DNA of 64,000 bases, from positions 1,054,001 through 1,118,000 of the forward strand of contig NZ_CP081964.1 in the NCBI RefSeq assembly GCF_019844075.1. Direction: 5' to 3'. Position numbers and translations under genes: made by a program. Source of the stretch: Curtobacterium sp. TC1 (GTDB taxonomy: Bacteria > Actinomycetota > Actinomycetes > Actinomycetales > Microbacteriaceae). The notes below the pieces were generated by a model. That model made no database searches, had not been told where the DNA came from, and was given only the letters and a program-made list of their open reading frames with translations. How positions within the stretch are numbered: the first letter of the stretch is position 1; the number at the start of each line of letters is the position of its first letter. Below are positions 30,979-31,916 of this stretch, piece after piece.

Positions 30979-30997
30979 CGCGCTCGGTGACGGACAG

Positions 30998-31027
30998 GAG
31001 GCACGGTGCCAGCTGGCACCGTGCCTC
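30998..31027. terminator. bidirectional terminator after gltA
   Basis: A perfect 30-bp palindrome centred on AGCT, with left arm GAGGCACGGTGCCAG. It serves gltA and the convergent small membrane protein gene. The left flank GGACAGGAGGC resembles the recurrent terminator family. Confidence 0.85.
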
Positions 31028-31081
31028 ACTTCCGCACCGGGGGCACGCTGAGCCCGTCGCCTCCTCGCGGACGCCTCGGGC

Positions 31082-31258
31082 TCAGGGCCGCCTACGGTGG
31101 CGGCGAATCGCGGTCCCGGTGAGCAGGATGGCCGCGAAGAGCGCGACAGCACCCAGAGCGTTGCTCGTCCACAGTCCGGCCGTCGCCGGCGACGTCGTGA
31201 TGACGACGCCGAAGGCGATCAAGCAGATGCTGACGACGATCGCGACGAGTACGCGCAT
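31082..31258 (-). CDS. small two-helix membrane protein with basic tail
   Basis: Fifty-eight residues. Two hydrophobic helices (VLVAIVVSICLIAFGVVI and NALGAVALFAAILLTGTA) are joined by a short loop, and the C-terminus RRHRRRP is strongly basic. The ATG at 31258 is chosen because GGAGCG lies seven nt upstream. A longer reading from 31291 is possible but would overlap the upstream gene's stop. It starts 25 nt after the secreted protein gene on the same strand and probably shares its mRNA. Size, topology and position suggest a dedicated partner or immunity-like protein, but that is inference only. No family is recognised. Confidence 0.6.
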   Translation of the reverse strand: MRVLVAIVVSICLIAFGVVITTSPATAGLWTSNALGAVALFAAILLTGTAIRRHRRRP

Positions 31259-31283
31259 CAATTCGCTCCGACCTGTTCTGGTC

Positions 31284-31838
31284 TCACACACAACGAGGGT
31301 TCCGTGAACCGCTGAAGGGGTAGACGCGGAGTGACTTCGATCCGCACCGAATGCCGTTGGTGGTCACCGCCCACGTCGCGGCGGCGATGATCGCTCCGGC
31401 CACCACGCAGAAGGTCCCCGCGCTGATCGCGCAGACGGCCGCGCCGAGGGCCCAGCCTGCACCGCTGATGATGGCGGATTGATCAGTCGCGTTGAAGGAG
31501 ACGTACGTTCCGTACTTGTCGCTGCCCGCACCCAGACGGGCTCGGGGATCGCTCTGCACGAGATCGAACGAGAAGCCGTCTCCGAGCTCGACGGTCGTCG
31601 TTCGCTCGCCGTCGCTCCCGACGCGCTCGTCGGTGACGTACCCGCCTGCGCGGGCTTCAGCAACGGCGACATCGAGCTGCTCTGACGTGATGTTCGCCAG
31701 CGGTTGCGACATCGCGGTCGCGGTCGGGCCGCTCAGCGCTGAGCGGCCCTCTGCGTGAGCAGACGGAGCGATGAGCAAGCTCGACGCAATGATGGCGACA
31801 GCTGATCCGATCGCCGTACCGGTGGTGCGAAGTGACAT
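31284..31838 (-). CDS. secreted protein with hydrophobic cysteine-containing C-terminus (unknown; bacteriocin-like)
   Basis: A 184-residue protein with a clear signal peptide, MSLRTTGTAIGSAVAIIASS to SAHA. An acidic linker of about 85 residues leads to a C-terminal module. That module has a Gly/Ala-rich hydrophobic hairpin (SGAGWALGAAVCAISAGTFC then VVAGAIIAAATWAV) and a basic end, RCGSKSLRVYPFSGSRNPRCV. Four cysteines in this module could form two disulfides. The second ATG at 31838 has AAGGGG upstream at a good distance. The first (31853) has none. Base composition is visibly less GC-rich than the neighbours, which suggests transfer. I do not recognise a family. A processed membrane-active peptide is one possibility, and a surface or adhesin-like protein is another. 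Confidence 0.68.
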   Translation of the reverse strand: MSLRTTGTAIGSAVAIIASSLLIAPSAHAEGRSALSGPTATAMSQPLANITSEQLDVAVAEARAGGYVTDERVGSDGERTTTVELGDGFSFDLVQSDPRARLGAGSDKYGTYVSFNATDQSAIISGAGWALGAAVCAISAGTFCVVAGAIIAAATWAVTTNGIRCGSKSLRVYPFSGSRNPRCV

Positions 31839-31858
31839 CTTCTTCCCCTTCATCTCGA

Positions 31859-31880
31859 GGCGCCGCGACAGCGCGGCGCC
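31859..31880 (-). terminator. nine-base-pair hairpin between dapD and the secreted protein gene
   Basis: GGCGCCGCG and CGCGGCGCC are separated by 4 nt. It may terminate dapD transcription. If the promoter at 31887-31916 is real, it also lies in the leader of the secreted protein gene, just before its start codons, where it could limit translation. Confidence 0.5.
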
Positions 31881-31886
31881 GATTCG

Positions 31887-31916
31887 ACCGTAGGGGAGTC
31901 GATGTCTGACACACAA
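31887..31916 (-). promoter_or_regulatory. candidate promoter of the secreted/small membrane protein pair
   Basis: On the minus strand TTGTGT (31911-31916) and TACGGT (31887-31892) are 18 bp apart, about 50 bp before the chosen start. The surrounding 100 bp is unusually AT-rich for this window. Confidence 0.4.

Follow-up and report, generated by a model that had tools for sequence, protein, structure and literature searches.

A two-gene locus of Curtobacterium sp. TC1 that probably encodes a secreted bacteriocin and a small membrane immunity protein

Between the genes for citrate synthase (gltA) and DapD, the 64,000-nucleotide stretch of Curtobacterium sp. TC1 DNA analysed here (the window) carries a pair of small genes encoding an exported-type protein of 184 aa, referred to as the main protein, and a 58-aa membrane protein, its partner. 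Sequence comparison favours, with a rough probability of 0.7, the reading that the pair encodes a secreted propeptide bacteriocin and a membrane immunity protein which would act in an SDP- or PAMP-like mode without the former being a recognisable relative of SdpC. The main protein matches no Pfam or NCBIfam model and none of the known bacteriocin families in the libraries tried, and nothing on the gene pair appears in the titles and abstract openings of the literature matches listed. An earlier note on this DNA had called the system undescribed, which holds within these libraries and the literature searched.

The gene pair and its locus

The main gene (31284-31838, reverse strand) starts with an ATG that has AAGGGG ahead of it; an alternative in-frame ATG at 31853 would give a protein of 189 aa, the form on which the predicted hairpin helices and the invariant residues below are numbered. 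The partner gene (31082-31258, reverse strand) lies 25 nt past the main gene and encodes a two-helix membrane protein, proposed to confer immunity, with two hydrophobic stretches and a basic tail with a terminal RRHRRRP. Reading of the open frames confirms this layout, which the earlier note had described, and the position of the pair is borne out by matches of the neighbouring genes to PF00285 (citrate synthase) and, over its cut-off, to TIGR03535 (DapD).

Two further observations of that note hold only in part. The unit is indeed less GC-rich than the window (0.660 vs 0.711, the 6.6th percentile of 835-nt windows), but the adjoining gltA is equally low at 0.661 and low GC therefore fails to single out the unit; it was dropped as a sign of foreign origin. 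As for a promoter-like sequence, a TAnnnT box 40-56 nt before the ATG is the best candidate in 13 of the 14 relatives read, a raw count with no chance expectation beside it, and the candidate -10 box in TC1 (TACGGT, 31887..31892, reverse strand) is placed purely by this comparison, whereas a strict sigma-70 scan found no promoter for the pair. It is plausible that the pair has its own promoter. Two inverted repeats (window positions 30991-31034 and 31048-31085) lie between gltA and the partner gene, and neither has T-runs that satisfy a terminator scan.

The interval between gltA and dapD is readable in 18 of 22 Curtobacterium loci, where it measures 78 nt at its shortest, 979 nt here and 1348 nt in genome G011, the only one besides TC1 among the 18 with the pair in this place. 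In the close relative L003 the pair likewise lies between gltA and dapD, and the remaining family copies are placed elsewhere in their respective genomes. The interval behaves as a variable cargo site: in some other Curtobacterium it is just 78-119 nt long, and in three loci (L059, L062 and L063) it has a different ORF, by eye an alpha/beta hydrolase. Plasmid carriage was also considered, and a plasmid collection gave no match.

The exported protein

The main protein consists of three parts, all encoded on the reverse strand. Its N-terminus (31752..31838), read off the sequence, resembles a signal peptide and terminates in AHA, an AxA site of which both alanines are invariant in 47 homologues. 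It is followed by an acidic pro-region (31536..31751), assigned from an AlphaFold2 model and pN/pS, for which a helix and beta strands are predicted, and by a C-terminal module of about 83 residues (31287..31535), assigned from alignment and pN/pS, which comprises a FNATDQ motif, a hydrophobic hairpin and a basic tail. The C-terminal part is Gly/Ala-rich and hydrophobic and includes four cysteines. Within it AlphaFold2 predicts a helical hairpin (31356..31457; helices 133-143 and 149-166) with Cys141 and Cys149 at the turn, and alignments outline a basic loop RCG-K-LRVYP---PRC (31290..31346) from Cys170 to Cys188, probably closed by a disulfide. Invariant among 61 aligned relatives are the D-Q pair (D124, Q125), G131 and the cysteines C141, C149, C170 and C188. 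Four divergent members of the family (L036 and L085-L087) lack Cys141 and Cys149 jointly and retain the two C-terminal cysteines, and this joint loss suggests that the disulfide pairs are 141-149 and 170-188.

Compared with L003, the main gene has a pN/pS of 0.30, which falls to 0.06 over the last 63 residues and is about 0.41 in the pro-region; within the protein, constraint is strongest in the C-terminal module, and the pro-region varies most. The full AlphaFold2 model consists of a helix at 57-69, five strands within 73-120, helices at 122-129, 133-143 and 149-166, and short strands in the tail, and its confidence is modest (mean pLDDT 73.6, pTM 0.44, hairpin blocks 63-72).

The membrane partner

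The partner has a pN/pS of 0.23 against its nearest orthologue in L003 and of 0.25-0.56 in five further comparisons. Main gene and partner are both real genes, and the partner is under purifying selection. The partner (P0002) matches DUF308 (PF03729) with 27 bits at a gathering cut-off of 25, but of 21 partners just two reach E 0.01, and the match may reflect the composition of membrane helices.

Linkage was assessed with a fixed rule that defines a partner as a protein of 50-95 aa with two hydrophobic segments and a basic tail, starting between -60 and +120 of the main stop codon. Of the 45 family loci, which are not fully independent (L024-L026 are nearly identical and L028 and L029 close), 36 satisfy the rule, or 38 when its limits are loosened. 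None of 102 control ORFs does; these are further coding-like ORFs from the window and from the dapD loci, in which a few gene families (gltA, dapD and neighbours) recur so that they are not independent either. The 45 loci leave out weak matches (L015, L038-L040 and L090-L097, of which last group L094 alone was read and is a different protein) and repeats (L018, L019, L041, L046, L080, L081, L083 and L098). Nine loci fail the strict rule; in four of them, L010, L012, L021 and L085, a weaker partner candidate can be made out by eye. The earlier note had held that homologues lacking a small partner would speak against the system it proposed, and such homologues do exist but are a minority of the 45. 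L032 and L033 have no small partner downstream on the same strand and instead a convergent multi-helix membrane protein beside a helix-turn-helix (HTH) gene, the HTH_3 domain being confirmed for L032 only; L035 has none in the usual place and a divergent two-helix, basic-tailed ORF upstream; and neither L036 nor L089, both weak members, has a small partner close by. The divergence of main protein and partner is correlated (Mantel r 0.81 over 17 pairs, equalled in 0 of 5000 permutations), which is also expected from shared descent alone.

Distribution of the family

A paralogue with 49% identity, elsewhere on the same chromosome, has a small partner of its own. A single-sequence search listed 48 proteins including that of the TC1 window, to which a profile search added one Frondihabitans protein and one from a Bifidobacteriaceae MAG, and a third protein search one more (P0057). 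At the genome level, main-gene matches occur in 14 of 59 genomes (TC1 and relatives), of which G032 (E 7e-4) is judged spurious; without it there remain 12 of 36 Curtobacterium genomes, the gene being intact in 11, plus a single genome from another family. With a profile, matches turn up in 22 of the 299 Microbacteriaceae genomes searched and, across the order, in 18 of 347, weak rows that match the signal region only being included. Against 396 genomes of the phylum, with eight candidates scored per row listed, the profile matched the TC1 genome alone. A second profile did match other families of the order, and since the phylum search scored few candidates per genome, the family may extend beyond the order.

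Several members are unusual. P0016 (324 aa, on a 138 kb contig) combines a main-type C-terminal part with a DapD-like Hexapep_2 domain in a single reading frame, which may be due to a fusion or to a frame error next to dapD. The divergent L036, from a 0.9 Mb genome, has a charged hairpin region devoid of cysteines, retains just the last two of the four cysteines and lacks a close small partner. In L089 the hairpin module forms the C-terminal part of a 343-aa open frame with an unrelated-looking N-terminal region, a possible domain swap.

Partner genes that outlive the main gene

A profile built from 21 partners, which match it by construction, gave 30 matches in 22 of the 36 Curtobacterium genomes, near-identical genomes being included in these counts, and one weak match outside the genus. 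Thirteen of the 30 partners adjoin an intact main gene; conversely, all 13 intact main genes in these genomes have a partner. In four cases the adjacent main gene has lost a large internal segment (L013, L017, L114 and L128), one partner (L122) adjoins a vestige consisting of the last main-gene residues, and for 11 no main gene is recognised by eye within 690 nt upstream (L106, L109, L110, L113, L116-L120, L125 and L127), with one locus not fetched.

Two further deleted main genes outside the genus retain their partner (L030 and L044). In all six internally deleted genes the start codon and the last codons remain in one frame, even in L114 where the remnant spans 17 codons, and in L013 the signal region and most of the pro-region are gone and the module is retained. 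A seventh damaged main gene, L086, has a frameshift, which may be a sequencing error, beside an intact partner; the 5'-truncated L045 was left uncounted. If one in three were expected to stay in frame, six of seven would have a P of about 0.007, calculated by hand and post hoc. That all six deletions are in frame fits a need for translation to run on to the partner start, and is read as selection that keeps ribosomes arriving there.

Proposed function and alternatives

The features of a bacteriocin-immunity system that are seen in this family are a linked gene for a small membrane protein and the presence of the partner where the main gene is missing in relatives. In the mechanism that we infer for disulfide pairing, processing, membrane damage, target range, killing and protection of the producer, the main protein would be exported via Sec and cleaved by signal peptidase after AHA, while the acidic pro-region would hold the hydrophobic C-terminal module soluble and harmless. 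By analogy with PAMP and SDP/YIT, a general extracellular protease, for which the conserved R106 is a candidate cut site, would then release some 60-80 residues as the module, in which one disulfide clamps the turn of the Gly/Ala-rich helical hairpin and a second closes the basic loop. The basic loop may attach to the surface of a related cell, upon which the hairpin would insert and disturb the membrane, and the partner, with its basic tail inside according to the positive-inside rule, would block this damage in the producer. A membrane target is proposed because the hairpin is hydrophobic and the partner is itself a membrane protein. The earlier note had likewise suggested a processed bacteriocin with its immunity protein, and this stands as the best-supported reading in that the partner is coding, conserved and often found beside a damaged main gene or with no main gene at all, with processing, killing and protection belonging to the proposed mechanism. 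Several observations count against it: no known bacteriocin family matches in the libraries tried, close relatives have a module that is conserved and not diversified, the AlphaFold2 confidence is modest, L035, L036 and L089 are without a partner in the usual place, and L086 is out of frame.

The alternatives differ mainly in the role that they give to the partner. As a helper it could assist the main protein in export, anchoring or maturation, and the main protein would then perhaps be a surface protein or another secreted factor and not a toxin. Constant linkage and joint divergence fit a helper equally well, and membrane helper proteins do serve SDP-type systems. A Sec-type signal should however make a dedicated exporter needless, and an idle helper should be lost, yet 11 Curtobacterium partners have no main gene and five sit beside a damaged or vestigial one; it is because of these orphans and damaged genes, unpredicted by a helper role, that immunity is preferred and the helper considered unlikely. 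The same survival of the partner alone is left unexplained if the secreted protein is aimed at a eukaryotic host, a predator or the producer's own surface, for signalling or adhesion, with the partner as receptor or anchor. Plants are the habitat of Curtobacterium and the hairpin could act on any membrane, but members also come from further families of the order, a Bifidobacteriaceae MAG among them, and this reading appears slightly less likely still than a helper.

A toxin-antitoxin-like or stress pair working inside the cell, with the producer's own membrane as the target of the main protein, is improbable. Such a pair would account for a small membrane partner adjoining a membrane-active module and for the retention of the module in L013 after loss of the signal region, but nearly all aligned relatives have the signal-like N-terminus. 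That the main protein has no true partner and the 58-aa frame is open by chance, a possibility which the earlier note had raised and to which the many long spurious frames in this high-GC DNA lend some colour, is in effect already refuted by the pN/pS of 0.23-0.56 across all six comparisons, by the contrast of 36 of 45 loci with 0 of 102 controls, and by partners found alone at E values down to 2.6e-22 (L106).

Returning to the reading as bacteriocin and immunity protein, the odds are roughly even that the pair represents a distinct class spanning the order Micrococcales, in which a Sec-secreted bacteriocin (signal, pro-domain and two-disulfide hairpin peptide) would be translationally coupled to a minimal two-helix immunity gene that is sometimes exchanged for a membrane protein and HTH regulator, and that persists alone as a defence in many Curtobacterium. 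If the bacteriocin reading is true, Curtobacterium gains a candidate toxin-immunity pair of only two genes, orphan partners would predict which strains resist which, and the four-cysteine hairpin would offer a simple, apparently unmodified membrane-active scaffold.

Comparison with known systems

Two-helix immunity proteins for which membrane action has been suggested are described, in the available text on polymorphic toxin systems, as linked to large polymorphic toxins, unlike the main protein here; one of them, Imm17, has a WxW motif and an arginine between its helices, and the partner has neither (PMC3482391). No sequence match was found between the partner and the two-helix immunity proteins of polymorphic toxins. 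The leaderless bacteriocins of Actinomycetota are small antibacterial peptides with a mean of 50 aa that are encoded with membrane-associated proteins, and in the excerpted text of the same 2024 survey Curtobacterium, Microbacterium and Frondihabitans are without described bacteriocins to date (PMC11580447). The main protein differs from the leaderless class in its signal-like N-terminus, with the AxA conserved in 47 homologues, and its pro-region; the N-terminus rules out this identity.

We know of no two-helix partner for PAMP of Propionibacterium jensenii. The main protein is likened to PAMP by layout and not by sequence, namely in its size and in the order of signal, pro-region and C-terminal fragment: the PAMP precursor is described as 198 aa long, with a signal peptide of 27 aa, and an extracellular protease releases its C-terminal fragment (PMC5756557).

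Homology to SdpC is unsupported, since TIGR04032 (the SdpC family) gave nothing up to E 10 against the main protein (P0001) or 18 family members, and profile-profile comparison, with three SdpC-like sequences only, revealed no similarity beyond the signal region; the relationship is retained as an analogy. The TC1 genome has three SdpC-like genes below the TIGR04032 cut-off (C1:96689-97063, C1:99311-99682 and C3:3833436-3833951; L047-L049), of which the chromosomal one has next to it an SdpA gene that exceeds the cut-off of TIGR04034 and a gene that looks SdpB-like by eye, so that TC1 may make SDP-type toxins too. Unlike in SDP, no SdpA- or SdpB-type genes lie beside the pair, whose neighbours are citrate synthase and DapD, and the partner is just 58 aa long in contrast to the multi-helix SdpI. 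In architecture the pair resembles SDP/YIT, with a putative Sec-type secreted precursor and a C-terminal hydrophobic domain, which is the toxin in SDP/YIT, where a membrane immunity gene likewise lies nearby, and in the account of these Bacillus subtilis toxins and their SdpI/YitQ immunity proteins, as far as its text was available, some strains retain only the immunity and regulator genes (PMC6818787).
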